Positions 10,644 through 58,189 of a stretch of 64,000 nucleotides of DNA are shown here, piece by piece; the stretch's first letter is position 1, and every line of letters begins with the position of its first letter. Source of the DNA: Bryoerythrophyllum caledonicum (Eukaryota > Streptophyta > Bryopsida > Pottiales > Pottiaceae); the NCBI GenBank assembly GCA_963971425.1, contig OZ020516.1, forward strand, positions 11,954,593-12,018,592. Direction: 5' to 3'. The notes beneath the pieces are model-generated. The model searched no databases. It saw nothing but the letters and a program-made list of their open reading frames with translations, and was not told where the DNA came from. The translations under genes and the position numbers were made by a program.

Positions 10644-10775
10644 CAATCCGAGGAGCGGATATGATGTAGATGATTTATGTTGGACTCGGCTTGCAACGTC
10701 TCCCCAGCCCGTGTTCATTGCGGCGCCATTTGTTGTGCTCGCGGGAGAGTAGAGTGTCACCGATAGGCAGCGGGA

Positions 10776-26589: not shown

Positions 26590-27930
26590 AGCACTTAGCT
26601 ATATGATGCAACTTTGCTTCAAGATGCAACTCTCAAGAGTACGTCTAATCCCATTGAAGCTAAAGCTTGGAGCGTGAATAAAAACATCTACTTCCGCACT
26701 AAATTGGCATATGGCAATCGGTATGAAATACAAATGCTTGCAATTCGTCCACTGCCCCCTCTTTCCTAGCGCCTTTGTTGACATTTCCTTGAAATTAGGA
26801 CAAGTGCATTTAGGAAACGAGCTTATTGTAATGATGTATTGTTGAATCGAAATTGCGATGCCTGAATCAAGCAATACAATGCATCCAAATCCGAGATTGG
26901 GAATCAAAGTTACCTGACGAATAACTGCCTTCAAGGTAAGTGCAAAAGCGCAATTGTTTGCTTGTTTTGTTGTTGATGCATTAGCATTTCTCCAAATCTT
27001 CTTTCCAGACCGTATACTCGGATGGTCGTCAAGAACAGGCGGAACTTGGAATCCTCATAAATTTGTTGATAGGTCACGATTCCCAAATAGCTTTCAAGGA
27101 GATATTTCAACACGTTGAGGAAGATGGAACCCTGCATTCTGAAAATCCAATATTTCTTTCGGTGTAAGATTAGTTCCAAGCTTGACTGGCCAAACGCTTG
27201 GGACTTGAGGCTTCAAAAGAACCCATTTCCGCTTGGAACCCTTAACGCACCGCTCAATGTCATCATTGTAGAAGAAGAATTGTATCCTTTCAATTTTGTC
27301 CTTCCGGAAATTTTCCATATTCCCTGTATAAGTTGGTGCAGCTATTCCTCTATTCTCTTGCACAATCAGCGACACATTTCTTCCTGTTTGCAGCTTGTAA
27401 GGCAAAACATGTTTTAGCCGACGTCTTGGGCAACCATGCAATGTGCCACTCAGACTCATCACAAATTGATTCTTCTATGGGAGTGATTGGAGGTGCGGCT
27501 GATGCGTTCAATGGGCCACTTGACATATGGATACCAGCCTCTTCTTCTACCGCATGAAGTAAGGAATCCTCTGAAACCGTATTCAAATGAATCATAGGTG
27601 GACCTACTTCGGTGGACCTGCTTGAGTGGACCGTGTATGTATACGTGGTCAAGAGAAATTCACCTTGTCGGGGCAGTGTGAATCATGCTCAGAAAAGGGC
27701 GACAAATCCGACATCTGCTTCCGAGAGCCAAAAACTTCCTCACCTTTGAAAGGTGGATCCCTCGTGCAATACTCTCCTACTCCGGGTACAGTAGCCGTGG
27801 CTTCATTAAGTCCTTTCGGGTTTCCGGTTTGCTGAGCATACCTCTGTGCTACTCGTATCTGGAGTTCGGCTTTACCAGGACCGGTTCCAAGATTCTCACC
27901 TTTTAAAAATTGATAATACCGAACCACCTG
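26590..27930 (-). pseudogene. Broken C-terminal half of a SWIM-finger MULE-like transposase related to the MULE-2 transposase
   Basis: Read downwards, the segments match the 1,188-aa protein of 30682-34339 in order. They are YYQFLKGENLGTGPGKAEL, CTRDPPFKGEEVFGS, EWHIAWLPKTSAKTCFALQA, NDDIERCVKGSKRKWV, GTNLTPKEIL and the SWIM finger CTCPNFKEM with NCKHLYFI (about 26700-26800). A frameshift near 27440 and gaps between blocks break it. The part with the catalytic residues upstream is absent. Divergence is large, so it is an old relative and not a fragment of MULE-2 itself. Confidence 0.8.
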
Positions 27931-30062: not shown

Positions 30063-30422
30063 CACCGGGCCGAGGATGAACGACCCCTCTCCAACAATCC
30101 AACAACTCCACACAGATACGCACATTCCTAACCCAATCTCAAAATTTTTACATTATTGCACATTCTCACACATATTAACGAGTCATATAGAAAACATAGC
30201 GCACAAATTAATGCTTACAGCACCTACACTAGGTACAAAACCTAAACATAATAAAAGCAACCCCACGAGCTATAAAGTCATAAAAACAAACAAAAATATT
30301 TCCGTAAACAGTTGTCGTCTAAAGAAACACAAAACTACTCACACGCTGTGGAAGAAGGGTTGGAATTGCTGCAGACAGAGCGCCAAAAAGGTCGTGACAT
30401 CCTGCACACAAAGCACGCAAGT

Positions 30423-30491
30423 CAACGACGCTAGTTTGTGAGCAATGAGCGGTGAGCGATGAGCGGTGAGCGGTGGTTTCATGAGCGGTGA
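30423..30491 (+). repeat. Left terminus of MULE-2 with subterminal GTGAGCGG array
   Basis: Starts CAACGACGCTAGTTTGTGAG and continues with about six spaced copies of (A/G)TGAGC(A/G)(G/A) up to about 30490. Confidence 0.8.
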
Positions 30492-30681
30492 GCAAAAAGT
30501 TACTAAAAATAAATAATTTTTACTAAAAATAAAATTATATTCAATTTTTTTTTCGAATATTTCTATTATTAATTTTTTTTTTCTGCCTATAACCGTGGGT
30601 TGTCGGATTTTGAGGCCTTCATTTGCAAAACATAAGAACTGTCAATTTGACCTATAGTAGTAAATATGCTTTTGGAATCCT

Positions 30682-33600
30682 CTACAGGAAACGATTGACT
30701 CCCTTGTCCATGACTTTCTTGATCTCGTTGAAGCTGAAAGTGGGGGCATGGACAAAATGGTCATCTTCGTGATCGAGATTGCACACCACACGGAAGATGT
30801 AGTAGAGGTGCTTGCAGTGGTACCAAGCGCCTCTCTTCTTGGTCCGTGCCAACATGTCCTTGAAATCTGCACAAGAACAATCGGGGAGAGGGCCGATTGT
30901 CAACCGATACTCGGCTGTAGTTTGCGCCTTTTTTGAGTGAAGTAAGATGATGCATCCATTAGCCGGATACGGAATTGGAATAATCTGCGAGATGTGAGCA
31001 TCGAGAATACCAGCTGACTCCCAACGATTTCTCTGCTTCACCGAGACCTTGGCGTTCGGGAGACGGCGAATGTGGCGACAATCGCGGGTCGTTGGATGTG
31101 CATTGGGTTCAGAAGGTAGTGGAATAGCACTAGGATGTGCTGCTCGATTGGATGCGTCTCCAAACAGACGCCTTGGTGAAACTTCTCGATGTTCTTCTAG
31201 CTGGAATCCAGCTTCCTCCAGTCTAAGAATCTCAGCCTTCGTGAGATTAGTGCCCTTCAGCACAGGCCATACTGTAGGGACAGGAGGTCGGTGGTTCACC
31301 CACTTCCTCTTCGTTCCCTTTACACAACGTTCGATGTCGTCCGCACAGTGGAAGAACTCCATGACCTGGTCCTTCAATGTCCTTCGAACGTGTAGAATTC
31401 CAGAATAGGTAGGAGCAGGAGTACTTTTACCCAGGCGCACAATCTTCTCCTTGCACGTCCTTCCTGTCCGGGCCTGCTTAGCAAAGCAACTCTTCCCTGA
31501 ATTTTTAGGGAGCCGAGCAATGTGCCATTTCTTCAAATCGCACTCAGACTCATGGACGCTCATGACATGCGTAACCCTTAAAGACATGATAGGTGCTGAC
31601 GCCGGTGGGGACATGATTTGGACGTTGTCTGAGGAAGTAGGAGAAGAAGGGAGAGATACATCAAGGGCTGAAGGCGCACTCTCCCGGCGTGCTCTAGTGG
31701 ATCTGGTAGGGACTTTGGGATGGGAGAAGTTCATCTTGTCCGGGCGGTGGCTGTCAAACTCGGATCCAAGTGGAAGGTCAAGCTTCCGCTTGCTAGACCC
31801 AAAGACTTCCTCTCCTTCAAAATGAGGCGAACGGGTGCACCACTCCTTAGCTCCAGGCATGCAATGAAGAGCTTCAACAACTTTCTCGGGCTTTCCCATT
31901 CTCTGGGCATGGCGTAGTCGCAACTCTTGCTTGGAGGGTCCACTACCGGAGCGCCCTCCCTTCAAGAACTGAAAATAGTTAGTGCATTGCATGAATGCAC
32001 GTACGAAGTCGTCCACTGTTGCATCGTACAAGTCGTTCCCCTTGTTTCCAGACTGTTGAAGCCAACGGTTATGAATTGACTCCGCCAAATTACAAGATGG
32101 CATTTCAGCCCGTTCTTCATCGGTGAGGTCCTGTGGAATACATGTCAACAAGAAGGATTTAGGTTGGTGGATCCAACAACCAATACGACTAAAATACTTC
32201 AGATTCTCAAAGGACTCTTACCATTTGCATGGAGGCACCCCATTGCCGGTAGCGGAAGTGCCAAAATGCGAGCCATTGTCCAAGCTGTTTAAGAGCTTCA
32301 TCGTTTGAAGCTCCACAGGATTGCCACCATGCCCGAATTGCAAGGTATCGAACTTCGGATTCGGCTGAAGTCTTGGAATCCTTGTATTGTTTGCATAGGA
32401 GACGATGCTGATTCTGGAACTCATTCTTGATGTACTTGTCCGTGTGGCGATTCATGGAGGTAGTCCAATGAAGGAGGCAAGTGCGCTCACGATCGGCCAT
32501 CACCTCTTGCGGATCACCAGAACCGTAGATCTTCCTCACAGCATTCCAGTTTGCACCAGCGCTATCTGCCATGAATCCTTTGAAGTTGATTGAATTGAGT
32601 CCATTTCTGGCCATTACTTCGTTGATTCCCTTCCACATGAGACATTGGGCCTCCGTATCTTCAGATTGCATGTCACACACGGCGATCGTCATCACTCTAC
32701 AGTACTGGGAATCGTACACATGGCACGCCATAGTGGTCCACTGTTTTACGCGTTTGACATGATCAAACATGAGCAACGCATCTTGCAAGTCTCCGCCCGC
32801 TTGCATCCTTGTCACGAGATCAACGCCTGAGCCGGGTCCTATCTCACTCATTTTAAATACAAAGACTTTATCCTTGTCACCCCCTTGACCAGGAAACATA
32901 TTTCGCTGGACAAAGGGCCATGTTGTACACCCCCTCATCTGACGGATGCCATCCATTGCTCCAGTGCGTCCAACCTGCTTGAATGATGAGATGGCATTCT
33001 TGACGTTTGGAGAGGCGAGGTTGGCGTACTTTTCCATGACGTCCTTCATATCTTCTATTGTCATGGTCTTCTCTGATTCTAGGGGACGAAGGAGATGTTC
33101 AGCAAGGAACTCCTTGCTTGCTGCCATCGCAATAGCTGAATTTGTAGCTAATGGGTTTCGCTCCACGTGTTCACCCAATAACATGTTGATCTTTGCCTCG
33201 GACTCTCGACAGGTTCCAAACGCAACAGGGTGGTCATGGGTGCCAATATGCACACAAGCACGAGTCATCCATGCAGGTCCTTGGACGTAGTAGATAATGG
33301 CATTACATGTAGCAATAACGGTAGGCGGGGTTTTGCATACCTTACATACTAGAGTTGAACCTTTGGGAGCTTGAGCCCCAGGGCCAACTGGCATAGGGGT
33401 GTTCCCCACCCACTCCTTCTCGTTGAAAGGCTCTTCTCTGTTGGGGCACTTTAAATAATCGCATTCCATGTTATCGCAACGAAGATGTCCAGAACAAGAG
33501 GATCTCCTAAAAGTGAGACCCATTCCATTCGAAATGTTTGAAGTCTTTGTAAGGCACCAACAATGGCCGTCGTATTTTTTATCCATACCTTGCATGTTTT

Positions 33601-34339
33601 TAGCTTTGGAGGTGCTAGCGTCCATAGAAGTAGGAGGCAACTCGAAGATGACATCACCGTCGTACGTGGAGGGGAGGAAGTCCACTTTCCTGTGGGGCAC
33701 TGTAGCATAGTTGACGGTCTTCAACGCGTTCTTCATCCCCGGCCTAGAGGCGAGACTCTTCAAACACGCCACAACACTAGTGCGTTCTAGGGTTTGGGGA
33801 TGCAGAGGGGGCCGTGATGCGGAAGATGGAGTCGGATGAAATTGATGTTGGGAGTGCATGGACGCCAATGGCGGGCTGAGGGTTGAAGGAGTACGCGCTC
33901 CGATATCTTCTTCGGGGAAGTCATCTTCGCTGTCCGAGATATGAATGGGAGAAGCAGGAGTAAGATGTACGAAAGCCGAGGGTGAATCTGGTGCGCCCGT
34001 CCGTGGAGTGTTAAACACCGGGTTGACGTTGGAAGTGGTGGATTTCCCAGGCGTCAAGATCTCCGTAGATGCCTGCATCTGCAAGTCAGTCAAACCGATC
34101 ACTTTGTAAGTACCCTCCTTCAAAAACCAAGTCTTTTGGTCATCCACAAGTATACTGAGTTGAAGCATGGTGTAGCTGATATTTCCAGCATCATCTAAAA
34201 CCTCTTCCTCTATATGGATAGTATCTACACGGTAGCCAAAACGAAGTGCAAGGAGCGATGAAGTAACCAAGGCAAGCCCATCAACTCCTAAAGGGATTCG
34301 GATTGGAATGAATTGATCATCAGTTCTAAGTGTTGCCAT
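30682..34339 (-). CDS. MULE-like SWIM-finger transposase of MULE-2, two exons
   Basis: The CDS is complement(join(30682..32130,32222..34339)), 1,188 aa, with one 91-bp GT-AG intron at a codon boundary. The N-terminal third has an acidic Ser/Pro region and a Cys/His cluster (GHCWCLTK, SGHLRCDNMECDYLKC, CKVCKTPP and HIGTHDH). The RNase H-like core has Asp in LLMFDHVKR (about 526), Asp in GFMADSAGANWNAVR (592), C/H in RTCLLHWTTSMNRHT (621, 624) and Glu in CNLAESIHNRWL (723). A SWIM finger CxC-x18-CxH ends the protein (1124-1147). This order is that of MULE-type DDE transposases; KDZ-type transposases are an alternative I could not exclude. There is no internal stop. The pseudogene at 26590-27930 is a relative. 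Confidence 0.85.
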
Positions 34340-35003
34340 TGAATAGCCAAACTTTGAGAAGAGTCAAAAGGTGGGGAGGAAGCCTAAAGAGAGTGACGAG
34401 TGTTGTGGAGCAGTTCTATTTCTCGAAGACTTGAAGTTGAGAAAAGGGGCACATCATGGGACGGCGTGACGTTAGACGGGCAATAAATTGAGATTTAGTA
34501 GATAGTAATAGCACTATACGTTGTATCTACTATTAGATGATGCACGATGCAATGACGGCTGCTGACAGTTGTTCCTTCAAAAATGATTTTAGGTGGATCG
34601 GTTCAAAGAGTAATATAAGTCTCCATTATAGAGTTGGGATGAAGGTTAGAAGTCCCTAATTAGTCAAGAAGATTCAGGATTTGAAAATGATCTAATGAAA
34701 GAATGAGTAATGTAATGGAAAGTGCTATGATTTATTGTAATACTCCAGTATAGATTTTACTAGATATGTTAGAGTGTATGGTGTTTCTTTGTATGCAATA
34801 AATAGTTGGTTGCTAACAAAACGTGGTAGCTCTAAAACAGATCGCCGTATTAGCGACGCGATTTTTTTATTGGTCCACTGGTACATCTTATCCCGTGGTT
34901 GATGTTGTTCCAATTGTTGCTTTTTGTACATGATGGTGAATGAAATGGGAGAGTATATCATAGAAAATGGGGTTCTGGTTAGATCATTTCATTTCTAAGA
35001 CAA
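34340..35003. promoter_or_regulatory. Divergent promoter region between the two MULE-2 genes
   Basis: About 660 bp of AT-rich DNA separate the transposase start (minus) from the first open frame on the plus strand. A shared bidirectional promoter is likely from the layout alone. No TATA boxes were fixed. Confidence 0.4.
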
Positions 35004-35330
35004 ATGCAAGAGTATCCATCTAGAGTGGGCGAACCCGGTCGAAAGAGAGGGAGGCGTCGGGCTGTTTTTTCCTCGCGGAGGGAGTTGAAGAGGTCTAGGA
35101 TGAGGCTTGCAAGCAAGAGGTTTGAGGGTGTATCTGAAACAGTTCGAGCGATAGATTTTAATCAAGAAGTAGAGCCTTCACTTGTCGACTCTTTAGGATT
35201 TGAAGGAGTACAAGTTTCATTGGGGGGGAGAGGTCGTGGGAGAGGTAGACGTGGAACAAGTGGAAGAAATGGTGAAACATCGGACCTAGAAGACCCAGAT
35301 GCTGGAAACACGAAGTCAACTAAAGCACAG
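35004..35330 (+). CDS. Candidate first exon of the MULE-2 methyltransferase-like gene (basic, RG-rich)
   Basis: The frame starts MQEYPSRVGEPGRKRGRRRA and has a glycine-arginine block GGRGRGRGRRGTSG, suggestive of a nucleic-acid-binding tail. It is the only sizeable plus-strand frame between the transposase promoter and the gene at 38416. At 35330 the sequence CACAG|GCAAG could be a GC-type donor; the phase (0) then fits the next exon at 38416, preceded by GTGTGTGTAG. If so, the protein gains 109 residues. Without the GC donor the frame simply ends at 35360 as a 118-aa ORF. Confidence 0.4.
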
Positions 35331-38300
35331 GCAAGATTTGGTTTTCATATTTGCCTTTGAGTTGTTGATACATGAATTAGCATGTTGTATTTGCTAAAGT
35401 AGAAATTTCATTTCAAGTATTTCATTAATTTAATTTTGGGGCCTATACATTCAATTCCTGCATAACGTTTGGGGATAAAAACAATGAAGTATTTTGGACG
35501 AAAACGTTTGGATTTAGGATTAACACCTCTAGATTGAAGGTTCTTTCACCTTACATCTTTAATGAGGTGGTCATTTCAGTTTCAGTACCAGTTGTCATAT
35601 CAAAATACGGCACCATACATGTTGAATATTATGACCCCCGGTGACAGTGAATGATATTTATAAGATAAAGATCCTTTTTAGAACTCATGCATTCATTTAA
35701 AATATCAAAACCATAAGATAATGATTTGGATGGTTGAGCAATAAATTTGTAGTCTAGACTAATAAGTTCGGTCGTAAATGTAGACTAATGACATTTTATG
35801 AAAATTTGAATTTGAAATAGTCATCGAGATCCAAGGTGCTATACCACTGAATGGATGCATGTTCTTGGGATTTTGTGGAGTCATGCACTTAGATTAAATG
35901 TGGAGGAACCCGAGGGTTGAGGAAATGGTACTTGCATGACCTCGTACTCCTGTTGACTTTTATCATCCATATCACCAGGAACGAAGATTCCTCGGAATCT
36001 TGGGTTGAGCCGGTGCTCCTCATAGTCTGTCGCAGCTTGGTTGTCAAACTCCCCTGCATCTTCACAATTTCTATGCCGCCGTTTCAGAACGCCGTAAGCG
36101 TCTGCTTTCTGGAACTTAGGTCAGCTTTGTGGTGTACTTGTGTGACTTGTGGAGTGTAGAGTCTAATTTGTTGATAGACGTTGATGCAGGTGATCTTGAG
36201 CGGTGGCAGTTGTGGAGGTGAGGCTGGTGGAACCGCGGAAGAGCGAGGAGCCGTTTTGGTAAGCACCAAATCCAAATCTGTATTCTTCTTAGATGAAGTC
36301 CGAGAAATGATTTCTTAGGGTTCAAGTTTCTGGTTTGCTTGAAGATGATATTGCACTTAGGGTTCAATATGAGGATTGCTTGAATATTAAATTGCGAATG
36401 CCGATTTGCTTCTTCGTCTTCTTGATTTTCGACGCCGTACACCTGCAGATCACATGAAATCTGGAACTCTACAGCTGAAGTGTCTAGTACTTGACAAGTT
36501 CTTAGTGAGATAATATGTATCGAGAAGGAGTCCTATAGTCTTCAAATAGTGACAACTTACGTTGTCGGCTCCAACAGTGAGATCATTGAGTTGATTTCTT
36601 TTTTTTGAATGAATCCTAGCTTGGTTGCGGCCTGGTTATTGAGTTTTGTCGACAGAGGTTGGGAGGGGTAAGGTGGGTCGTGTGATTTCCTTCTGACTGG
36701 ACACGGTAATGATACTATCTTTGCCGATCTAGAGTTGTGTCGATATTAGAGTGTATCTATGCACTCAAGTGAGAATTATGTGCGGCAACTGCTAAGGTGC
36801 TCAGCGTCTGTGAGCCACGCAAGTAGCAACTTTGAGATCTAGTCATGCTTGATTGCAGCATACGAATCTACCTGCATCGGGAACAAAAAAAAACAGTGTT
36901 GCCATTGCGGATCGGTTTTAAAATTGATCTAAACTTGTGCATATACGTCGATGGTATATGCACGTCCAGTCTCTTCAACGCCCTGTGATATAATATACTA
37001 AGTACACTGAACCTGGAATGTAGTAGTTCGGAGCAGCACTACTCGCGTCTATGCCATTGGAGCCGTGTCTAATTTTTATTCGAAGTAATTTACACCTAAA
37101 CTCAGGGTTCACTTTTAAATTTTCTTTAATCATCTTGTCCTCAGTGATGTGTACATTCAGGTTGTAGGATCCGATAACCGTGAAACTGTGAACTTGTGCA
37201 TGGATTTTGTGTCGCTTAAAATGTTGATCTTGCTGGTGCGCGAGTAGTGCTGATCCGAACTCATGTGATACTTGACGTAGCATATACGAGTATTAGTGTT
37301 CACTAGAATACTCAACCTGGAATATCATTCGATCATTGAACCTGGAATATCATTAGAATACTGAACCTGGAGTGGGAATATCAAGAGATCATTGAACTTG
37401 GAATATCATAAGAATACACATCCTGGAGGTCAGTGTTCATTAGAACTCACGTGATTCTTGTCGTAGCTAAGTTACAATTCAGTCTACATGGTTCATGTCG
37501 AAATGGCTGAGTTACGACTGTATCATGTCGAAACTCATGTGATAATTGTCGATACTCATGGAGAAGTCGTAGCTGTCAGTGGACCAACGTGATTTCGGGA
37601 ATTCTAAATTCAGGTTGTAGGATCCGACAACCACATCGTGGAGTTTTTGAATCCTGGAATTCATTGTGTCGATACAAGACTTGAGTCGCATTGCAATGCA
37701 TGTGAATGAGAAACTGGTGACGTGAAATTGCCTTTGTAGTTGAATGTCGTTCACTGATCTAATGATATTCCAACTCCAGGTTCAGTGATCTATTGTTTAG
37801 TGATTCATGATCATTGATTGTGTGATGTTCGTTGTGTGATGTTCAGTGATCGATGTTCATTGATCGTGTGATGTTTAGTGAACACTGCATTTCGGATCGT
37901 GTCAACACTGCATTTCAGATCATTGATTACTGACCACAACATTTTGGATCAATGTAATCTAATGTTCAGTGATCGATGTTCATTGATCAAGTTCATTGAT
38001 CGTGTTTAGTGATTCATGTTTATTGATCCAGGTTCATGAATCACTGAACATGAATCATAGATTTCTAGGCACAACACTCATTGATCGCTAGGATCTTCGC
38101 AACATTTCAGTTTCAATAATGTAATTTGGATGCAAACCGAAATGCATGTGTAAGAGAACTCTGTGATAAAATGTGAAACTGTGTTTAAACTCATGTTGAT
38201 TTTTGATAACTTTGATGAATCATTTTTTGAGTGTTCTAATTGATATCATAAACAATCATTTATGTTCATGCATAACTTGTGCTTTCAATGCGTAGTGTGA

Positions 38301-38415
38301 GTTGTCTGAACTCAATAAATACAAGAAAATCTGAAAGCTAGTCTAGGGTGCTAGAATTGGTCATTGCACAAGTACTTTGCCTTCATATGGTTTCAACATG
38401 ATTCGGTGTGTGTAG
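35331..38415 (+). other. Probable long intron or spacer of MULE-2 with repeats and palindromes
   Basis: No coding frame is convincing. Between about 37310 and 37430 CCTGGAATATCA-type words repeat, and between about 37770 and 38060 TTCAGTGATC/TTCATTGATC words recur many times. GGATCC-type palindromes lie near 36556, 37161 and 37613. Confidence 0.45.
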
Positions 38416-41400
38416 ATGGCTTCAGATGGAGAAGCCGAGCAACTGAGTGAAGCTTCAAATCCAACGAATGACATGGTGGATGCTGTGATGGACTCTCCGA
38501 TTGGCAAGGACGCCGAAAATCTAAATGAAGAGGAGCCAGAGTCTTCAGGTGAGCTGTTAATTCGAAAACGTTCAAGACCTTTACTTCGAACCCATTTGGG
38601 GACCCCTCCTGAGACTGATACACCTACTAGCATCCATTCAAATGAAGGAGGAGCATTAGCAGGCGAAGAGCCTTCTTCAACCAACCCCCCCATGGAGATC
38701 CAAAGGAGTCCCATGACGACAGAGGAACGTGCTCGCCGTCAAGTTGTGAATCTGCGAAATGCTGAACTTAAACTCCAGGAGGGTCATATTCAAGGTAACT
38801 TATTCCAGGTGATTGAGAATATGCGCCGGATTCCAAGCTCGAAGTCTTTGATAAAGATTCCACTCTGTCGGCTGATCCCATTGCCTTTGGTAAGACCCAC
38901 CCTACGATCTGACATTCTCAAACTAATGGGTGCATTTCGATTTGGCTATCAACCGCATGCAGCAGCCATGTATGTATCAGAATACAATGAGAATGGCCAG
39001 AAGCGGGTGGTTACTACTGACGACATGAAGTCTTGGAGTGTTTTGTGGATTGAGGAAAATTCTGCATTTGAAAAAAGGCTCTTGGCAGACCCTGATTTGG
39101 AAGATTTATCAGGTAGCATGTTTTTTGTCTATGATGGCAATCACCGATTGCTTGCTTGGAAAGAAGTTCTTGATACATTGCATGCGGAGGATGTTAACTG
39201 GCATTCTAGGCATGGGAATCCGGATTGCGTTGTTTTGGACACTTCCGGAGGTCAAGGTGATATTCTAGAGGCCATGCACGACATAAACAAGTAAGCCATA
39301 ATTCTTATTTTCATTGATTGTTCATATATTGAATCCTGGTGCAGAAAATCTAATCTATATATTTGAATGTGTAGGGCAAACCAGAATGCTCACGTCAAAA
39401 CTACATTGGTGCACACGCTTCATCGTATTCAATTGTACGGAAGTCACAAGTTGGAGTATTATAAATCAATGCTAACAGAAGATCAATATAAAGCCTGTGT
39501 AACGAAGACCATCAAAACTTGGTATCCCTTAACCAAGAATCTCATGGTTAATTTTATTTTTCAAGTAAGTTAACTACATGTTCATTATCAATATTTATAA
39601 TGGCGTCGTACTTATTAATTGGTTCTTACGGGATTATATTGGATCAGGATGAAATTGTCCAAGCCTCACAAGAGGCCGGACAAACATACTCTGAAGATGT
39701 TGAGGAAGCTGACCAAAGTGAAGAAGGATTTCACAAATACGTGGAGAAGGTGGTTACTAAAAAACGAGATGAACTTGCCAATCTATTCAACAAGTGCAGC
39801 TCCATTGCAAATCCGGCATACAAAGGATTATTAGAACAAGTAAGTTTCCTGGCAAAATTCTTAAGTTCAAGATTGTATTATTAATCTACTTGTGTACTCA
39901 TGATAAATTTATTTGTGTCGTTTGAATGCTTGGCATCTTTATCCATGGTTGGATTCATTTGTTGTAGTACTTTGATCTCCTAGGCTTTAATGAAAGTAGG
40001 ATTATCTTTGGACTTTTTTAGACTCTATATGATGTTGGATCCAACAACCTAGATCCTTGAGAGGAAAGTACGGTGCATTTCTTTAAGGTGAAATTTGTTT
40101 AGTTAAATTCAAAGTTTAAAGCACCTTGCAATATTTAAAGAATGAGTATTTGTCGGATCCGTTAGCTGGAGGGAACATTTACATACCAAACATCATATCC
40201 AAGATCTTGGACTTAGGGTTAACTAATCTAGAGTCGAACCATTGGGAAATATTGGTCTATGTTTGATGTTGGATCCAACAACCTAGATCTTTGTGATTTA
40301 AGTATGGTGCATTTCTTCATGGTGAAATTTGTTTAGTTAAATTCAAAGTTTGAGCACCATGCAATATTTTAAGAATGAGTAGTTGTCGGATCCGTCAGCT
40401 GGAGGGAACATTTACATACCAAGCATCGTATACAAGATCTTGGACATAGGGTTAACAAATTTAGAGTCGAACCATTGGGAAATATTGGACAATGTTTGAT
40501 GTTGGATCCAACAACCTAGATCCTTGTGATTAAAGTATGGTGCATTTCTTCATGGTGAAATTTATTTAGTTAAATTCAAAGTTTGAGCACCATGCAATAT
40601 TTTAAGAATGAGTAGTTGTCGGATCCGTCAGCTGGAGGGAACATTTACATACCAAGCATCATATACAAGATCTTGGACTTAGGGTTAACAAATTTAGAGT
40701 CGAACCATTGGGAAATATTGGACAATATTTGATGTTGGATCCAACAACCTAGATCCTTGTGATTAAAGTATGGTGCATTTCTTCATGGTGAAATTTATTT
40801 AGTTAAATTCAAAGTTTGAGCACCATGCAATATTTTAAGAATGAGTAGTTGTCGGATCCGTCAGCTGGAGGGAACATTTACATACCAAGCATCATATACA
40901 AGATCTTGGACTTAGGGTTAACAAATTTAGAGTCGAACCATTGGGAAATATTGGACAATATTTGATGTTGGATCCAACAACCTAGATCCTTGTGATTAAA
41001 GTATGGTGCATTTCTTCATGGTGAAATTTGAGCACCATGCAATATTTAATGAATGAGTAGTTGTCGGTTCCGACAACAGGAGGAAACATTTACATACCAA
41101 GCATCATAAACAGGGCAGAGTGTATGTGATTTTGCTTATGGATAGATTTTGTGGAGATAATGAGGATATAATCTGTAATTAGTAGTAAAAATAGCTGGAA
41201 TTGGTATAAAATAACTACTAATTTGATATTTCATGGTAGAATTTATAGCCACGCAGTATTTAAAGCCATGAAATTGCACATTAGATTTTATCATCCTGGA
41301 TTAGAAGAGCAGTACTTGGAACTATTTAATAGAGTTGTCGAATCCAACAACTTGTTTTCAATTGATGACTCAGTGGTGACAATGTTAGAGTTCCCGAGTG

Positions 41401-44400
41401 CTAAATATCGACAAAATCATTATTTCAAGAAGGACTCTTTAGCCATGCAGTAATCAATGCCATATAATTGCACATTACATTTATCATCTTGGTTTAGAAG
41501 AGGAGTACTTGATAATTTTTATTAGAGTTGTTGGATCCGACAACCCGTTTCGAGTTGATGACTATGTGGTGACAATGTTAGAGTTCAAGAGTGCTAAGAA
41601 TATATATTTGTCAGTTGTTGGATCCAACTATCGATTTTGAGATGATAAGTAGCCAATGAAATAGTTAGGATTCTTTGTGTTGAATCGGTGTTGTTCCTAG
41701 TTGTTGGATCCTACAACCAGTTCGGAGATGTTAAGCACGTCATGATTGTGATAGAGTTTTGAGAGCTTAATTTGTAAAATTCTCAATTGCTGGATTTGAC
41801 TACATGTTTAGAGATCATTAGTAGCTTGTGTCAATGGTATGAATTTTGAGTTGTCGGATCCAATAACCATTGATGAAAGTTAGAACAAGACATCAAAAAT
41901 ACTTTGGAATAATACGTAGTGGAATTGGTGGCTGGTAAGCATTTGCTTGTCTCAATAATTTAACCACATACTCATATGTTTAGACACATATATGTTGTGG
42001 ACAAGTGTATGGCTCATAAGAATAATTATAGTCTATTTGATGATCCATTCAAAGTATAATTTTCCATTTAAATGATGATTGCTCTATTTCATGAGTTTTG
42101 GGCATGCTTGACTGATCTTGAAAGTAGTCACCCTTGTCTTTAGTTTTTGCCATGCTTGAATCAATATATTCTCTTATGTTTCGTAATACTTGAATGGCTA
42201 TACTTTTCAAATATTGTTTCTTGGATGATGAGTCTTTGATGCTTCAATCAATGAATATTTAGATTGATATTATACGTTATCAAATTAACTTAGGGGAAGA
42301 AAGTGATTGCAGCGTTCACAAACTTTATGTCTTGATTTTGTAGGTTATATTCCACTACAGCGTCCATGTTGCATCCAAGGTTGAGATGACCTTGGAAAAA
42401 TTGCAACTCATTGCAACCTCATCGGTTGAGCCACAGTATAAGATTCGCTGGCTCAAATGGTGGAATAGTTCATTAAGCGTCAGACAAGACCTTTGCTTTC
42501 CAAAGCCCCCTGCTAGCGAGGATCATTTAAAGAAGTTTCTTATTCGCGCGTCATTTTGGGCCGGTCTTGAAGAGATGGCCAAGAAAGAGCTTCTTCCATA
42601 CTTAGATCTTTGTGGTGGGGTGGATAATTCAAAGGATTTCATGTCCTTTGAAGACTATGTTGAGACATGGCGGATTACACTTTGGGACAAAGCTTTCTTC
42701 GGGTATTTCACAGGGGACATGGTGCATCAAAAGGGAAAACCTTTTGAGAGTGTCAAGGATGCCGACAAAGTAGTGAAACGGCTTTGCCTCAGGTATTTCT
42801 ACGTTACCCACACCATTGAGCTAGAGTTCAAATTCCATTGTATTCGCAAATTTGGCTTCTTTGAATTCTAACACCAATTTCCGTGAGTTTTAAAGGTATA
42901 TGAAGCGGGAACTCTTACGTGCTGGGGCTATCAAGAAGCTGCCACCAATGGTTCATAGTTGGTGCGACCCCGCCTCTTCAATGGAGACATTTATCTTCAA
43001 TCCTCTACAGAAGAAGAACTATACTAGGGAGCATTTCCGCGAATGCTGCTGGTATCTGGAGTGTCCTAAGAACTTCTGTCCAGATGCAGAGGAGGAAGTA
43101 AAGTGTCTACTAACTCATTCTACAGAGGTATCAGACGACGATGAAGATCCAGGGTTGGTAAAAGAGACATTGCTTGAAGTCGACAAGTCCTCAGGAAAGA
43201 AGAATAAGGGCCCTGCTACGGGGGCATCTGTGACAGAGGTTACCACGAAGAAGGGCAATGCAAAAGGTGCAAAGCTGACTAAATCCTCAGCTGGGGCTTC
43301 GAAGGTGGCCTCCGTTGTGAATTCTGGAGCTGAAGAGGACACCACCATGACTGAAGCAACGAGCTCCCCGGTTACCCTCACCTCCGCCGTTTTGAAAAAA
43401 CCAAATCCAATGCCCAAGATCACTATGTCGACTTTGGCTTGCCAAGTGCGTATTCTAAACACCTCTATTTTGAAACAGCGAGATTTCATTCATAATGCAT
43501 GTCGGTTTGCTCTGGAGTGCAGTCCAAATCGGTCTTGCACACGTGGCGGGAAACCATGGATGAAAGGCGCTGCTGATCTTGTGATCACGGATGTCCCTGA
43601 AGGCTTCCCTGTCCCGAACGTGTCAGATCCTTCTTCAGATGTTCCACTCTGGAACATTCGTGATGAGCAATACTTCGATGAACTATTTGATTTTGCTGAT
43701 GAGGTATTGCATGATGACGGAGCAATGCTTCTATTTTTTCCTTCTGATAATGGAGAATTGCTCGATGAAATATCTTCATTTTATGGGGCTTTTGGTTTTG
43801 AAGCACTGAAGGATTGGACGGGAGTTAATCACTTGCCTATTTCTTCGGCAAAGACTCAGTTCACTACGACCAACCTTTTCAAGGTCTTGCTTCTCAAACG
43901 GGTCCGTCGGCCCGCAGATTCCACCATCTGGAAGTCCAAGTTCTCTTTCCAGGACGTGCCAGAGCTTTTAGCCATGGGATACGATCTTAGTGTCAATGAC
44001 ACCATTATCAATTATTGCACAACTCCTTTGATGAACGGTGAACGCGCTTGGCGTGGTTCAAGGGAGAAGGATGAGTACTTCTTTTCCTCTCTCATATTGT
44101 CTCTGACACGCCCTGGCGATGTGGTGGTTGACGTTTCAGTTGCTACAGGTAATTCCAATACTATCTATTGTCTCTTCATTGTTTTAATGAATTTTCGATT
44201 TCTCTCTTTTCCATTACCGTGAATTTATTTTAATTACACTTTGAACTCTTTTTAGGTAATAGCATTCGTGCCTGCAACGCTACTGGTAGACACATCTTTT
44301 CTCTGGAAAGCGAGAAGGAGTTGTATGAAGCAGTCCTTTCTTCAATGCAGACCCAGGCATTACCTTTGGCAACTCTTCCAATTGCAAAACAAACCTTGGC

Positions 44401-44754
44401 ACCAACTACTTCCAAGACCATGCGTCCTCCAGCGGTGAAGAGGCCAAGACTTGAAGATACTGAGTAAGTGAGTACACTGACATTCCTCTTCACTACATTT
44501 CTTTCATCAAGAAGCTTCTACTAAGTCTGTGTTTGATGTATATTGATTCTTGCAGAGAGTATGTTTCCCCCTCGAAGACTTGGGCTCTTCCGTCGTATGC
44601 GGAAGATATTGCGAGGCTCCAAGCTTTACAGTTCTCGCCGCCTTCCCCGTCTATATCACGTCCTAAGTACAACTCCGATGTCTTTATGTATCTTGATGTT
44701 GAAGTTGAGGTAGATCTTGAATTCTCAGAAGCATCTACATCGTCATTTCAGTAG
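38416..44754 (+). CDS. ParB-like domain plus beta-class DNA methyltransferase-like protein, seven exons
   Basis: The CDS is join(38416..39290,39375..39564,39648..39839,42344..42792,42896..44148,44256..44463,44556..44754), 1,121 aa, with every junction GT-AG and in phase. After an acidic N-terminus, VYDGNHRLLAWKEV (about 239-251), CVVLD and INKANQ fit the ParB/Srx fold (GxxR core). A helical middle follows, then a low-complexity Lys/Ser/Thr linker (about 650-740). The C-terminal part has DLVITDVPE (796-804) in the place of DPPY motif IV. Near the end, PGDVVVDVSVATGNS (975-989) with TGRHIFSLESE fits motif I (AdoMet binding). This IV-before-I order is that of the beta class (PF01555). The DPPY-like site is altered, so activity is uncertain. 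ParB-methylase fusions are common in phages and bacteria. The gene diverges from the transposase and lies wholly within MULE-2. Confidence 0.7.
40031..41113 (+). repeat. 233-bp tandem repeat, about 4.6 units, inside intron 3 of the methyltransferase-like gene
   Basis: Units start with GATGTTGGATCCAACAACCT at 40031, 40265, 40498, 40731 and 40964. The middle units are almost identical; the last has an internal deletion. Each unit holds two GGATCC-centred palindromic words. Confidence 0.95.
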
Positions 44755-46819
44755 TGTTGTTATTCTCTGGTTGTACTCTCTATGTTTGTTGTGTTACGAT
44801 TCTATTGTTTTAGTTAAAATGATCCTAACTATCTTAATATGCTTCGGTGACAATGCTTTGGTCTTGTGTGATTGTCAAATGTATTTAAATTTCAAACTTC
44901 CAATTCTTCTGACAGTCGTTGGATCCGACAACCTCAACCATCTACAAGAGTAGATGCAATCTTGGCATTGAACCAAGTTCTCCATGTAATTTCCACATCC
45001 TTGTTTAACGGTTCTCGATTACTCAACCTTCTATTAACGGTATTTGTTTTTTCCATTTTCGACTCATTTTTCTCCTACTGTTCACTTTCCTTCATTCTAT
45101 TTTTTTTTTAAAATCTTTTTTCATTTGTAGCCTACTTATTCCCTCTTAAATTTTATTTTCTTTCTCTTTCCATCTTCCTCTTCTTTCTCCATTGTTTATA
45201 TTTCTTCTCTTTCCTCCATGTACTTATTCTATTCCCTTCACTGTTCTACTCTTCTTCCCTCTAATTTTCAAAAAAACTTTCTCTCTCCACATTGATTTTT
45301 CTTCTTAACTTGGTTTCCTAAATCCTTAGTTTTTGATATTATCTTCTTTCTACTTCTCTCCTATTTTCTATACTTCTATTCTATATCCTCCGTCTAACAT
45401 TTCATCCTCTTTGTAGATCAAATCCATTCTCTAACAAGAGCAAAACTCAATATTCTCCGTGGTTATAATGGTAATTGAATAAACATGATATAGTATAAAA
45501 TTTCTCCAATTTCTACATATATATGTCTTAATCATTTTAGCAAATGCCATGAATTGGCAAAAAATATCGTACGGAAGTATATTGTGCACTACCTGAATTG
45601 GCATGACAAATCATTCGTTGGATCTTACAACCCAAATGAACAAAAAATTAAAGGGTGGCCACAGAGTCCCACCACGTCTTCAGCGTTCTACCCAAACCAC
45701 CTCATTTTCGACTATTAGCATGTATTTATGTTTCACGAGCAACAAATGTTGATTAAAATTAACAGTTCAAACCCCGCCATTGTTGGGAGATTTTTTTGTC
45801 GATGTACATGAAAATTGGTGCCACCCAAAATTCATTTATCCAAAGCAAGGTACAAATTATAGTTCTTGACTTTGGAAATTCAATTTTGTAAAGGAAAAAA
45901 TTGATGGTAATATAGCATCATTCATACATAAAATTGAAAGACCCTAAAGACCTTCATAGAAACTACAATTTCAACAGGTCCTCTATAGCAATTATTTGCG
46001 AATTCCCGTTTAAATCCTAGAACAATATGGGACAACAATGGCAAGAAGAGTTTGAATTCTAGTTTTCACATGTTTCCTTGTTTGTAATGGTCCCACTTTC
46101 TTGAGGAAGTTAATTACAAACCTATCAATGTTTTAAATTAATTCATTGAAACAACTTGCACGTGGCATTCAGGTGGCAAATAATTGGTGTACAGTGGAAT
46201 AAATCTTACATACAACTTAAAAACTAGCCCCTTCATAAAAACTAAACTTTCAACAATATAAAAGGAGATGCTCTCTCATGTCTCCAATTTTGAATCTAGT
46301 TTAAAATTTGTAAATATATCTTCAATCCTAATACAATTTACCATTAAGTATAAGCTAAACTCTAAATTATAAACAGCTAAAACACTTTGAGGTTTTTGAA
46401 TGATGTTCATAATATATTGGGTGGTTCTTTGTTTAATCATTTTCTCCTCTAAACTTCTAAGGTTTGTAATCCTAAGGCTTAAACACTTCTCACGAGGCAT
46501 TAATATATAGTAAACAAATTAATCATAGAATATAAACTACTTAAATTTTACGAAAATGTGATTTATGCAAAAATTCATTTCAGTAGAAAAATGAAATCTT
46601 TATGCATATTCAAAAACAAGAGAACATAATCCAGGTTTCAAATGTGGATATTGCAGGCTCTACTACTGCAAAAGTTCCACAGAAATAGGCAATACGACTC
46701 CAAATTTTCCACGGGTATTGGATACACTAGTGCCACATCTCCACGGTTAATCATCCAATTTCTACAAAATATCATCCTCAAATTTCCAACAATTCAATGC
46801 TCAAATTCCCACCGCTCAC
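44755..46819. other. Non-coding right part of MULE-2 with a pyrimidine-rich tract
   Basis: After the methyltransferase-like gene, about 45040-45410 is strongly T/C-rich on the plus strand. Palindromes occur near 44915 and 45613. No gene is seen up to the right terminus. Confidence 0.5.
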
Positions 46820-46870
46820 GTCCCACCGCTCAGTGAGCATTGCTCACCGCTCACAAACTAGCAATCCTGG
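46820..46870 (-). repeat. Right terminus of MULE-2
   Basis: The reverse complement starts CCAGGATTGCTAGTTTGTGA and contains further GTGAGCGG-like words in both orientations. The outer 8-9 bases differ from the left end, so the ends are asymmetric outside GCTAG. Confidence 0.8.
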
Positions 46871-46881
46871 CACGCAAGTCA

Positions 46882-48864
46882 GTCTAGGGACACAAGAAAA
46901 ACGATACACATCAACATTGAAGCCATCCCAATCTGAGGAGCACCTAGCAAGACATGGCAAGGCGAGTGTCATCCATCATCTACATGCAGTGCTAATTAGA
47001 AGCACACCCACATGCAGAGGAGCAAATTACGCACCTGGTGGAGAAAGAAGCCTCTGCTGCAACCACATGTATCACACAGGAACCCTGCCAAAGTACTGCC
47101 ACGCAACCCTTCACCTACGACGCACAGAACACTTCCAATGACGCAGGAAGCTGCCATCATCAACAAGAAAATGAAAACAAGTACCAACAGACAACACCAT
47201 CACCAACGAGGTAAATTCACTAACCTCCCTTGAAATTCACTCCACTACAAAGTATTACCACGGGAAATTCGTGCAGAAAAATCCAAGCTGACGAGCAAGG
47301 GAAGGAGCTACAGCGCTCAATCATCCAAAGACAGCCAAGCTAAAGCACCCAATCATCGCTCAAAAGGCATCTTTGACAGCCACGACCCCACAATGCTCCG
47401 CTCCAAGCCTCCTTTGTCAAAGGACAAGTTGACAAATAACGCCATCCCTATGCCACCCCAAATCCGGCTCTAATCAGCTTGGCAAGTAAGATTCCCACGA
47501 TTCTCAATCAACGACAATAGATCAATCCACTTGCCACCAAACCCTAGAACGCAGGAGATGGACGAACATCGCCTCGACTTCCCCCACGACTCATCCATCC
47601 AAACTCTACACCCAACAAGTAAGTATAAACATCTTCACTTCAAACCCTACCGCTCATCATCTCAACTCGCCTCTCACTGCTTAGATTTCCAGAGACATCA
47701 CTACAATAGCCGAGACAAGCAGATAGTAGTGATTAGGTTTTTTGTGAGTAGACAAACAGAAAATTACAGTAGCAGTACATGCACCGCACCTCCCAAGAAC
47801 ACGCGCCGCACCTCTGCAGTGCACCTCTCCAGCCTCTGGTTCAAATCTCATCTCCGACCAAGGAAGACTCCTTGTAGAAGTGACAGCCGCCTACTCTCGT
47901 CAAGTCCCGAAGTGGAGCCGTTGCGAACCGGGTGGCATCAAGGAGACGCGAATCAATTCAATACAGGCTCGAAGAGGAGAAAACCTCTGCGACAGCTGGC
48001 GGTGCTGTTGCGAACGAAGAGACATTAAGGAACTGCAGACCTCCACCACACGGCGCCGGAGAGTTGGAGGTACCTCAGCCAATTCCGATCGGGGGAGACA
48101 CGCTACGGGAGAAACTGTTGTGCGGTACTACTGCGGGCTGGGCAGAGTTGTGGAACTCTCATCCCGATAACCACCTGGGTGGTACTGCTGCGGGCTGGGT
48201 GGAGCTGTAGAGCCCCCGCCTCCCAGGGTTCGGGACCCATCGTCAAAGCCTATCGTCGAGGGACGCTGTTATCTCGAGGGATGTTGGCCCATCGTCGGAG
48301 CCCTATCCACCCATCGTCGAAGCCCATCGTCGAAGTCCATCGTCGAAGCTCTACTCACCAAAGAAGAAAACAGGCACCTAGAGGCAGACAATAGGCTTAC
48401 GCACCGCGAAGGCGCTCAGACTCCACGCAAGTCCGAAAGTCGGCAGACAATCAGAGCCCCTACTCTGACGCGGCCCCCAAAATAGAGGAATGCCGAGCGC
48501 CCCTGTTCCTACCAACACCGGCAGTCTCTGGACAGACTACCCTTGACATACCCAACCGAGAAGCGGATTCAGGTCAGGAGATGCTCCAAACTCAACAGTG
48601 TAGGTATACACTTCAGAGGCGACTACCTTACAGGCTACTCCTCCCTCGAAGCGTCCATCAATCAATCAGGTAAGCACCCCCCCCTTGTATTCCTTTCTTT
48701 GTTTTGCTCCATTTCCTCTCTTTGTATGCTTCTATATGTTTTCACAACCTGCAAGCCGACAAAGTAAGTTGTGGGATGGAAGTGATAACATAATATTCCA
48801 TAGCAACTCAATACTTAAAGCTGCAGAAAAAACCAATAACAACCTCTTACTGTTGACATGCAGA
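46882..48864. other. No certain gene; possible 5' region of the ORF1/LINE unit
   Basis: Plus-strand open frames near 47531-48028 and 47932-48210 match nothing. About 48110-48210 contains two near-copies of a GGTACTACTGCGGGCTGGG block, and about 48235-48345 repeats CCATCGTCGAAGC. The part before 48865 ends in a splice-like TTGACATGCAG. Confidence 0.35.
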
Positions 48865-51501: not shown

Positions 51502-51546
51502 AAAGAAATTGTTGCAAAATATAGAAAAAACCCCACATACTACAAA

Positions 51547-51591
51547 CTACTAATACTAATTGGTGGAGACATAGAGACTAACCCAGGACCC
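51547..51591 (+). other. 2A-like ribosome-skipping motif
   Basis: The frame reads LLILIGGDIETNPGP, matching the consensus D(V/I)ExNPG|P with an upstream hydrophobic run. 2A motifs at the N-terminus of LINE ORF2 are known from some animal and protist elements. The next codon block starts MPNVLKRH. Confidence 0.8.
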
Positions 51592-54276: not shown

Positions 54277-57200
54277 TACGACAATACCCATGGCATGACC
54301 TAGATGGATACACATTAGAAAAAAGAGGAGACCCGGAAACACCACTACACACATACTTCAATCAAGCTACATATGACACTAGCCTACAAATCCTGGGAAA
54401 TAATAAGGCCCCCGGACCGGACCGGACCGAACTCCATACTAAAAAACATGCCCCCAAGGTTCCACAAACTACTAAAACTCTTTTTCTCCCACTGTTACAA
54501 ACAAAAACAAATCCCTGCTTCATGGAAAACAAGTACAACAATCCTACTATACAAAAAAGGTGACCCATCCATGCTACCCAACCATAGACCCATCGCATAA
54601 GCGAATACCATCTATAAACTATTTACAAGCACACTCACATCAATACTATCATCATATGGCGAAAAACATAAAATATTACATGATAGCCAAGAGGGGTTTT
54701 GCGCTGAAAAAAGTACCGCTAGACAAATCCAAACAATAATAGCCGCATTAGAAGATGCACAATTCACAAACCAAGACATATTCACACTATATGTTGACTT
54801 TAAAAATGCCTTTGGCTCCATTGACCACACTAGACTCTTAGCCATAATGATGGACCTTGGATACCCCAAAGACGCCACCACACTAGTGGGAAATATATAC
54901 TCGGAATCCTCAACCTCAAACATTGGAGAACACTTCAGAAAAACCAAACCAATAGCCATCCAAAGGGGAACAATACAAGGGGATACTCTAAGCCCATATC
55001 TATTCATCATATTCTTAAAACCACTAGATAGAGGCAACAATGGATACACATTTGGGACATCACAAACCACCATCAACTCCACGGCATACGCGGACGATCT
55101 TGCGGCCATAACCAACAAAATCGAAGCTATAAAAATACAACTCAACAAAATAGACGGATACTGCAAATGGACAGGTATGGACGTAGGTGTCTCAAAATGT
55201 GTCGTCAATGGATGCCCAAATAAATCAAAAACAAATCCCACCGCATTCAAAGCCCTTTTACAAACCTCTAACATTAATTACCGAAACCAACCAATACCCG
55301 TACTACACCTAAATGAACCATACACATATTTAGGAATAAATCTCGTCCCCTCCCTAAAATGGAAAATCCAAATCCATGCCACCACCAAAAAACTAATTAA
55401 ACAATGTAAAGAACTAGTAGCTTGCCCGGCCACTATGAAACAAAAAATAAAAATGATTGACACAGTGATAAGACCGGCCGTGGCATACCGCTTCTACGCA
55501 ATACCATACTCAATGCCAACCATCAAAAAATTGGACCAAAAATAGTGGCCACACAAAAAACTGTATGTGGCATGCCAAAATGTATGTCTAATATAATAAC
55601 CCAATTACCGCACAACCTCTTTGGACTAGAAGTTTTTTCGCTAAAAAATGCATACCTTAGATGTATAGGAGAACAACTACAGAACGCTTTAAATGACAAC
55701 GGAAGACTTGGAACAATATATAGGGCCTTAACACACCACATCCTCGCCCAATATGGGGGGGCCGAAAACATACCTAGAATAAAAAAGACAAATTGTACAA
55801 GATCACCAATAACACGTACCTTTTTCCTACTAAAACACGTAGCAAAAGTCCACTTAAAAAGTAAGCTCGCCAATTTTCTTATAGAACCAACAACACTAGA
55901 AAAAGCTTAGACTCTCGAAACACAAAACCATAATACACTCAACACACAATTATCCCAAAAGTTATTACAAAAACTCCTATCAAAAAACATCTACGAACTA
56001 AAAAAATCTCCCTACCTAATGGAACACACGTCATGAATAATGAAGAGTTCAAAACCTACCACTTTATCCCATCAAAACTAATTAAAAGTGCCCTCAAAAT
56101 AGCACGACAACTCTTTTGCCACCCAATATACCCCCCCCCACACACTAATAATAACAACACACATACATACTCCCATACACTTAAAGACCCATTCATCACT
56201 ATAAACAACGACATCATCCCAAAAAATACCCCCCCACCACCGATACATCCTCCCCACTCCCACCCAAGCTACCCCTGCCCCCCAAATTACATCCTCAAAA
56301 ATCCCACTATATACCCCATAGACATCATCATACACCACGAACATAAAGAAAAAACAGACAATAATCAAATTGAAAACAAATACACGAGATATCTATGCCA
56401 ATGGGACCACAATAACAACACCTACAACAAATGGCTCCCCCAAAGAAACCTCTTCCCAAGACACAACCAAAACACCATTACACACAATATCAATAAACTG
56501 ACACAATACTATCGAAGAATTCAACATAAATTCTACTCCGAAATTATCCAAGCTCACCACCCACAAAATCAATCCTAAGACACAAGGTCCGTCACCCCAC
56601 CCACAATAATCCCCCTAGTAAACATTCACACAACGGAATGTAACCCCGAAAACAACATTCTCACCTAATCAACACAATTAAAATTGACAAAGACCAAGCA
56701 CACTTATACGAAGAAGATGGACGACACCTCTTTACCATCACAATCACTAGGCTCACATGGTTATGGAATCAATACAATACTAAACTACAAACCCATACAA
56801 ACATTGAACCAACAACCCAACCATTTGAAACCGAAGTCATATGGCTATACCAAAGATACAAATATAGAATACCAAAAAATAACCCCCTCAAACTTACACA
56901 ATATACACTACCGACACCTATACTAAACTCATTAATCTCAACATTCAACATCCAACACTCATATTTTTCCTCCCCCGTCACATGCTCCACCAAACTCAAC
57001 AAATTCTACTCCTCCTTTGAAAGAGATAAAATATTTGGATCACTAGGTAAAGCTTTTGACTACAAATGGATAGGCAATGGTATAGCTCACCTCCACAATG
57101 AAAAAGAAACACAACAAGGACTACACTGGGCCCGCCTTGCAGCCAAACATGACCCAAACCACACCTCAACCCTAATCATAATCCCCGACAAAAACTGGTA

Positions 57201-58189
57201 TCAAAACCCTAACCCACACTCGGGCCCTTTTTCTGACTCACACATCATTGCACTATTTGAAGCAGATTCAATAACATACGAAGAACCCACTATTCCACCT
57301 GAGCAAAATAAACCTAGGCTTGAACCAGCTATACTACAAATACTATATGTCCACCACCAAAACAAAACTATGGGAACCTTTGAACAACTCACCACGCTCA
57401 CATCCATAGCCAAATCTTTGAACATAAACCGAATATACACAAACATTGCCTCAACCACAGCCCCCCAAACACCAGTAAACCGTAGCAAAAAATGGTCTAA
57501 ACTAGAATACAATAACAACACACTAAACTACTCCATGACAAATCCCCCTCTCCCTAATTACCACACACATACATACCCAAAATATGATCCCATACATAGT
57601 TACTACACGGATGGATCCTTCAAAGAACTAGTAGAAAGTAGCCCTGGACACTGGCAGAGAGAAAAAGTCGGATATGGCATATACAATCCCAACAAAGAAA
57701 TCAAATTAGCCAAAAGACTCCATGGACTTCAAAACATCCTCAGAGCAGAGATGATGGCCATACATAAAACACTCCAAATCATCAACACAAAATATGCCAA
57801 CGAACCCGCACACATTTTTACGGATTGCATCAATGTATTATATCTACTAAACACACAAATAACACACCCTACTCTCCACAATAGCCACCCCGACAAAATA
57901 ACACTCATGTCCATGGTACAAATGCTTCAAAATCGAACACAACCTACTACTCTCCATAAAGTTAGAGCCCACGCTAATATTGAAGGAAATGAACAAGCCG
58001 ATAAACTAGTCAAAGAAGGAAGAGAAAAATCTCATAAAAATGCCAAAGACTCACATGAGCATGCACATGCCACCCCATACTACTTCCAAAAAGAGGATTG
58101 GCCCTCTAAAGATGACACCCCGGACAAAGGCCCGGTCCGACTTTTAGGAAAACATCTCAAAAAACAAGACACATACAATGACATTGACA

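Follow-up and report, generated by a model that had tools for sequence, protein, structure and literature searches.

What use might a plant transposon have for a gene that resembles a prokaryotic DNA modification enzyme? We examined this question in a stretch of 64,000 nucleotides from the moss Bryoerythrophyllum caledonicum (GenBank assembly GCA_963971425.1, contig OZ020516.1, positions 11,954,593 to 12,018,592, forward strand; hereafter, the window, to whose first letter as position 1 all coordinates refer). It contains a large DNA transposon with a SWIM-type DDE transposase and an accessory gene, the product of which combines a probable ParB-like N-terminal part with a C-terminal methyltransferase domain. 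DNA methylation is the means by which plants silence transposons, and the known countermeasures encoded by elements are few. In this case, a modification fusion of prokaryotic type has apparently been retained with a catalytic residue replaced throughout the family, next to a dense set of element-specific candidate sites. The reading that we favor, at a probability of roughly 0.47, is that the protein serves its transposon as a DNA-binding accessory: probably without methylase activity, it would bind palindromes of its own element and act against silencing.

The accessory gene and its element

The accessory gene consists of seven plus-strand exons that join in phase into 1,121 amino acids (aa) and a stop codon; all six introns are GT-AG, and no stop interrupts the frame. 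These are exon 1 (38416..39290), with the ParB-like DGNHR region; exon 2 (39375..39564); exon 3 (39648..39839); exon 4 (42344..42792); exon 5 (42896..44148), with the methyltransferase-like domain, whose motif IV reads DVPE; exon 6 (44256..44463), with the remainder of the motif I-like block; and exon 7 (44556..44754), with the stop codon. Each is defined by the joined frame, exons 1, 5, and 6 also by relatives, and the latter two in addition by profile matches. Relatives were sought with exon-sized queries among 5.8 billion proteins at an E value of 10 or better. The query from exons 1 to 3 recovered 57 (E down to 3.1e-75), and that from exons 5 and 6 recovered 21 (E down to 1.1e-122) among the 8,000 candidates with the most shared words, to which scoring was limited; the whole 1,121-aa protein as a query recovered nothing at an E of 0.001 among 7,999 candidates scored. 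Judged from these two sets of relatives, the gene model is more than a product of chance. Seven of the 57 exon 1 relatives are intronless across the junction of exons 1 and 2, two proteins (P0075 and P0077) run continuously across that of exons 4 and 5, and two others (P0059 and P0064) contain the exon 6 sequence after in-frame read-through; the support from relatives covers these three places and none of the junctions 2|3, 3|4, and 6|7. A further 36 of the 57 stop one residue past H[DN]IN, the point at which exon 1 of the window ends, a pattern that is expected if a GTAAG donor places a stop there. The ATG at 38416 immediately follows a TAG, a possible splice acceptor. Farther upstream, an open frame with abundant arginine and glycine (34983-35360; GRGRGRGRRG) may belong to a third, small gene or form an additional 5' exon.

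The element that contains this gene spans 16,445 bp (30425..46869) and is bounded by two exact copies of a 12-bp direct repeat, GCACGCAAGTCA (30413..30424 and 46870..46881, both on the plus strand), a candidate target-site duplication. Its terminal inverted repeats (TIRs; left, 30430..30475, plus strand; right, 46817..46862, minus strand) are 76% complementary over 46 nucleotides, with the outer 14 nucleotides perfect. Similar termini form a second pair (58198 and 59951), which agrees with the main pair in a handful of bases beyond the TIR core, and because of this agreement the true element ends lie just beyond that core. The short element delimited by this second pair (58198-59971) has the same kind of termini, has no copy at up to 3 mismatches of the palindrome described below, and is perhaps a non-autonomous relative. 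On the strand opposite to the accessory gene lies the transposase (30682..34339, minus strand), an open frame of 1,188 aa in two exons (34339-32222 and 32130-30682) separated by a 91-bp GT-AG intron (32131-32221). We take D543, D592, and E723 to be its candidate catalytic residues and the CxC(n)CxH pattern at residues 1124-1147 to be its SWIM finger, both picked out by eye from motifs of Mutator-like elements (MULEs); no MULE or SWIM model of Pfam matched the transposase pieces. The flanking repeat of 12 bp compares with a range of 8 to 11 bp for MULE target-site duplications in the cited portion of PMC6446971. The gene structure drawn in a preliminary description of this DNA, and its placement of the gene between the termini of a 16-kb element beside an intact transposase, were both upheld.

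Plant MULEs often carry captured host fragments, and the accessory gene could likewise be a host gene that was captured by chance (pack-type) and plays no role in the element. We consider this very improbable, given a seven-exon frame that is open throughout and the number of relatives of each of its halves; similar proteins are, moreover, reported from transposons of three algal groups in the cited portion of PMC12477816. Searches for prokaryotic or viral relatives of the gene were negative within their scope: a pattern-seeded scan of 2.9 million viral contigs gave 128 pattern matches and no confirmed relative, the same kind of scan of 84,980 prokaryote species, each represented by a single genome, gave 133 pattern matches and no confirmed relative, and a scan of the viral contigs for Spo0J confirmed none. 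In tblastn, the ParB-like part matched five phage records, with a best E value of 0.2, upstream of the motif. We infer that the gene belongs to a eukaryotic-type family of some age and is not a recent bacterial gene; the earlier view that it was captured from prokaryotes would thus hold, at best, for an old capture.

A methyltransferase fold with a replaced catalytic residue

Downstream of the VYDGNHRLLAWKEV core, a motif IV-like block precedes a motif I-like block, the order that the preliminary description had given. The spliced domain matched PF01555, the family proposed there, at an E of 5.3e-5 (23.7 bits, below the gathering score of 26.7), in an alignment of residues 94-272 of the submitted piece that starts after motif IV. 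Among the 22 family members, this model matched 1, the window's own row, most of the other rows ending near motif I. The best sequence matches in the PDB were CcrM (E = 0.0014) and DpnA (E = 0.0047), for the motif I half only, and family profiles searched against the PDB gave chance-level matches (CcrM, E = 1.2). We also compared the 22-row family by using hhalign with a set of nine methyltransferases, namely, the product of the viral-contig open reading frame L071 and eight enzymes annotated in phage records, which a tblastn search with the methyltransferase domain of the window had originally supplied and which are hence not an independent draw. The match reached 98.6% with a score of 109.9, against a maximum of 23.8 in 99 column shuffles; both motif blocks were aligned, and motif IV, where ADLVITDVPEG of the family is paired with VDMILCDLPYG of the comparison set, fell within the confident range. 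As judged from these alignments, the C-terminal part of the protein has the fold of the beta-class N6-adenine/N4-cytosine methyltransferases, in which motif IV precedes motif I.

Motif IV of the nine comparison enzymes reads DPPY (three), DLPY (two), DIPY (two), DLPF (one), or DPDY (one), so that five follow the pattern D-[LI]-P-[YF] and all nine have an aromatic residue at position 4. The family has D at position 1 in 21 of the 22 rows (N in the other), V, L, or I at position 2 in every row, and P at position 3 in 21 (A in the other); at position 4, E occurs 17 times, D 5 times, and an aromatic residue never. Within these rows, the block is otherwise conserved, and the sole abnormal feature of motif IV is this acid, found family-wide where the catalytic aromatic would stand. 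We read the replacement as a probable loss of normal aminomethylation, the protein having been kept for another use. In the motif I loop, a hand count of the 19 rows that reach it found the last glycine kept in all 19 and the first in 8. Two further marks of a dead enzyme were tried and dropped: the first proline of motif IV, absent from the family, is also absent from five of the nine comparison methyltransferases, and the proline after the motif I aspartate, likewise missing, is missing from L133 as well.

The N-terminal part is probably ParB-like, a call that derives mainly from the DGNHR core. In the family alignment (A1), D140, G141, N142, H143, and R144 are conserved at ≥90%, and the succession of strand, helix, strand, and DGNHR fits, by eye, that of ParB/Srx if an insertion of some 45 residues is allowed for. 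In shuffle tests of this part, with the motif held fixed and the insert cut out, 5 of 150 column shuffles reached the real score against 96 viral-contig DGNHR proteins. Ten viral-contig DGNHR proteins were scanned, and five of them matched ParB_N at an E of ≤1, two above its cut-off. PHROG 1033 (ParB-like partition protein) gave weak matches in 34 of the 58 members (best E = 0.038), the window's row not being one of them. A strong hhalign score against the viral DGNHR proteins (97%) was not used as proof, as these had been chosen by that motif. Besides the weakness of the PHROG 1033 matches, three results tell against a ParB-like part and hence against the favored reading: the Pfam models of the ParB N-terminal domain matched 0 of the 58 members; PF18064 (ParB C-terminal) matched 2, with a best E of 0.089, which is the level of chance; and against 13 canonical ParB sequences, 97 of 150 column shuffles reached the real score. 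The original ParB-like label is thus borne out in the nearly invariant core and not in any significant ParB profile match. It gains prior weight because the same two domains have been published together in algal transposons (see below).

A palindrome array confined largely to the element

An 18-bp palindrome, GTTGTYGGATCCRACAAC, absent from the preliminary description, occurs 19 times at up to 3 mismatches in the element (taken as 30426-46882 for the palindrome and coding counts) and not once in the other 47.5 kb of the window; at up to 4 mismatches, there are 21 sites inside and 1 outside. In 20 dinucleotide shuffles of the element, no site appeared at up to 3 mismatches, and the mean at 4 was 0.15. 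Grouping of the sites by similar flanks left 10 contexts, with an identity of 0.79 in the motif versus 0.27 in the flanks. The motif was discovered in the same sequence that was used for testing, a circularity that counts against our reading, and for this reason we counted the near-copies of every 18-mer on the plus strand of the window, with simple sequence excluded. Five motifs had at least six near-copies, and among these the palindrome occupies 10 contexts, an overlapping version of it 4, and the other three 2 each.

All 21 of the listed sites are noncoding, although 42% of the element is coding; the chance that ten independent sites would all be noncoding is about 0.004. Fifteen are located in intron 3 of the accessory gene (40031..41867; 14 at up to 3 mismatches and one at 4), where five units of a 233-bp tandem repeat (40018..41118, plus strand; repeat families D1 and D2) hold 10 palindromes (9 at up to 3 mismatches). 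Of the remainder, one is in the transposase intron (32163..32180), three are intergenic (36561..37631, starting at 36561, 37161, and 37614), and two lie 3' of the accessory gene (44915..45631, at 44915 and 45614, the latter with 4 mismatches). The nearest sites are >1 kb from either TIR. The centre T, C, and C are invariant in the 19 sites, and the variable positions are CpG dinucleotides, which read CG in 7, TG in 10, and AG in 2 on one side and CG in 8, CA in 10, and CT in 1 on the other. This variation looks like deamination of methylated CpG. Another repeated motif was observed in the same region. Between 37332 and 38048, upstream of the accessory gene, there are ten copies of TTCAnTGAT in both orientations, and 12 of the 13 copies in the window are in the element. 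The half site GTTGTYGG of the sites at 40031-41867 resembles the VANC6 motif AGTTGTCC/AGTTGTAC, a likeness that may be due to chance.

The closest parallel to this layout is provided by the VANDAL elements of Arabidopsis, whose transposases carry a SWIM finger (cited portion of PMC6446971). According to the cited portion of PMC5735166, the VANC protein binds short repeated noncoding motifs, including those in VANC and VANB introns and in the region upstream of VANA, and causes loss of methylation across the VANDAL element. Like VANC, the moss protein is an accessory encoded by the element, and the motifs are repeated in noncoding DNA, introns included, and are partly in tandem, as are the VANC21 and VANC6 targets described there. 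Because the layout of the palindromes equals that of VANC targets, we propose that the accessory protein binds them and protects or opens the element. In this model, a prokaryotic-type fusion of a ParB-like domain and a beta-class methyltransferase would have given rise to the protein; the methyltransferase scaffold would have been kept, with an acid at the position whose aromatic residue, in enzymes of this kind, holds the flipped base; the protein would bind the GTTGTYGGATCCRACAAC palindromes across the introns and intergenic DNA of the element; and the binding would keep the element's own chromatin accessible, as VANC does for VANDAL elements. There are also differences: the motif here is an 18-bp palindrome, in contrast to YAGTATTAY for VANC21, and Pfam detected no VANC domain in the accessory protein, matching only N6_N4_Mtase and DUF5300 (E = 0.14).

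Several points weigh against this reading. A single replaced residue is no proof of lost activity, GATC, at the palindrome's centre, would be a fitting target for an adenine methyltransferase, and the varying CpG positions may reflect sites that are themselves methylated and decaying. In addition, the palindrome may be bound by the transposase or a host factor and not by the accessory protein. In one alternative, the protein is an active, unusual methyltransferase that marks the element, recognizing the palindrome and methylating its GGATCC centre at the A or at a C. Such an enzyme would be compatible with the invariant T, C, and C of that centre and with the frequency of GATC, which exceeds expectation in the element (93 observed versus 70.1 expected) and falls below it outside (116 versus 156.1), even if the excess is partly due to the palindrome sites themselves. 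The PDB enzymes matched, CcrM and DpnA, the D-[VLI]-P of motif IV in 21 of 22 rows, which is like the phage D-[LI]-P-[YF] and is set in an otherwise conserved block, and the conserved final glycine in the motif I loop also agree with it, and the authors of PMC12477816, in the cited portion, propose self-modification for a brown algal protein. We nonetheless judge it unlikely, since all 22 rows have an acid at motif IV position 4, at which the phage enzymes uniformly have an aromatic residue, and the motif I loop keeps its first glycine in only 8 of 19 rows. Because of the replaced aromatic, the earlier suggestion of a modification module that may mark the element DNA is not favored, and the published proposal of self-modification of the transposon by proteins of this kind is called into question.

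In transposons, binding sites for the element-encoded proteins are commonly present in repeated form. The palindromes might accordingly serve the transposase or a transcription factor, with the accessory protein having a separate role in transposition, and the site in the transposase intron and the three between genes would be in keeping with this. We regard this alternative as doubtful, as 15 of the 21 sites are in intron 3 of the accessory gene, away from the termini, and the termini bear a different unit, GAGCGGTGAGC. Three exact copies of that unit are found at the left end (30436-30493) and one exact copy and two with 2 mismatches at the right, and it is the likelier candidate for a transposase site. 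Binding by the accessory protein with an anti-silencing outcome is the reading that we retain, and the other two roles raised in the preliminary description, countering host silencing and serving as a DNA-binding accessory, appear to be the better options: the palindrome array fits them, and the accessory protein is proposed as the binder by analogy with VANC. A more specific and still less probable version is a nuclear parS-like system, in which a ParB-like nucleotide-switch domain joined to a nonmethylating DNA reader would load at the palindromes, spread, and exclude the silencing machinery. If true, a counterpart of VANC would have been invented a second time, independently, out of a prokaryotic conflict module. 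For gel shift assays or DNA affinity purification sequencing (DAP-seq), the array offers a concrete sequence, GTTGTCGGATCCGACAAC.

Related systems and other features of the window

Accessory proteins with ParB-like and methyltransferase domains have already been published for algal transposons. The cited portion of PMC12477816 describes one of 1104 aa, with a ParB-like domain and an N4C/N6A methyltransferase, in Sola1-1_Ec32 of Ectocarpus and cites similar proteins in transposons of green and red algae (Iyer et al. 2011, Petroll et al. 2025). The moss protein resembles it, as described there, in size (1121 versus 1104 aa), in having the same two kinds of domains (the ParB-like one being probable here), in belonging to a large DNA transposon, and in being encoded on the strand opposite to the transposase. 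The host element differs: in the alga it is of the Sola-1 group, whereas the plant genome studied here has one with a SWIM-type DDE transposase. Set against that published description, by which alone the algal protein was compared, the plant protein is also distinguished by having an acid instead of the catalytic aromatic, as well as by the palindrome arrays, and it is the family-wide acid and the element-specific array that are added here. Among open-license publications, titles and the openings of abstracts mentioned no land-plant version, replaced catalytic residue, or palindrome arrays.

Prokaryotic and phage ParB-methylase fusions share the order of a ParB-like domain followed by a beta-class methyltransferase. 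They include Bce_0392 (cited portion of PMC5512222) and the viral-contig frame L071:308-1735, which matches ParB_N at an E of 0.0064 (below the cut-off) and then N6_N4_Mtase at an E of 3.4e-27. L071 differs in its DPPY motif, the plant protein being longer, interrupted by introns, and provided with DVPE. A looser parallel is offered by the fungal DNA transposons with TET/JBP genes, in which an accessory gene also acts on epigenetic marks; that gene, however, codes for a 5-methylcytosine dioxygenase, a different enzyme family (cited portion of PMC12730594).

Scans of the window with Rfam and for tRNAs found nothing. The window contains further traces of comparable elements. A second SWIM transposase relic (26602-27054) is 40% identical to the main transposase over 139 aa, and a similar element end lies at 25852. 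Another MULE-like element (10767-15317) has a SWIM-like finger and, on the opposite strand, a frame that resembles an Ulp1 protease by eye; Pfam gave no match at an E of 0.01 for its segments 11322-12233 and 14331-15317. An NF-YB gene (PF00808) of plant-like appearance is also present, in keeping with a plant host. The frame at 56644-58209, which follows a reverse-transcriptase frame, matches RNase H (E = 1.6e-12) and PCIF1_WW (E = 2.8e-11, above the cut-off), an odd pairing for an element that resembles those lacking long terminal repeats. Finally, the frame that starts at 51502 (51502-51591) has, after its first 15 residues, the sequence LLILIGGDIETNPGP, which resembles a 2A ribosome-skipping peptide.

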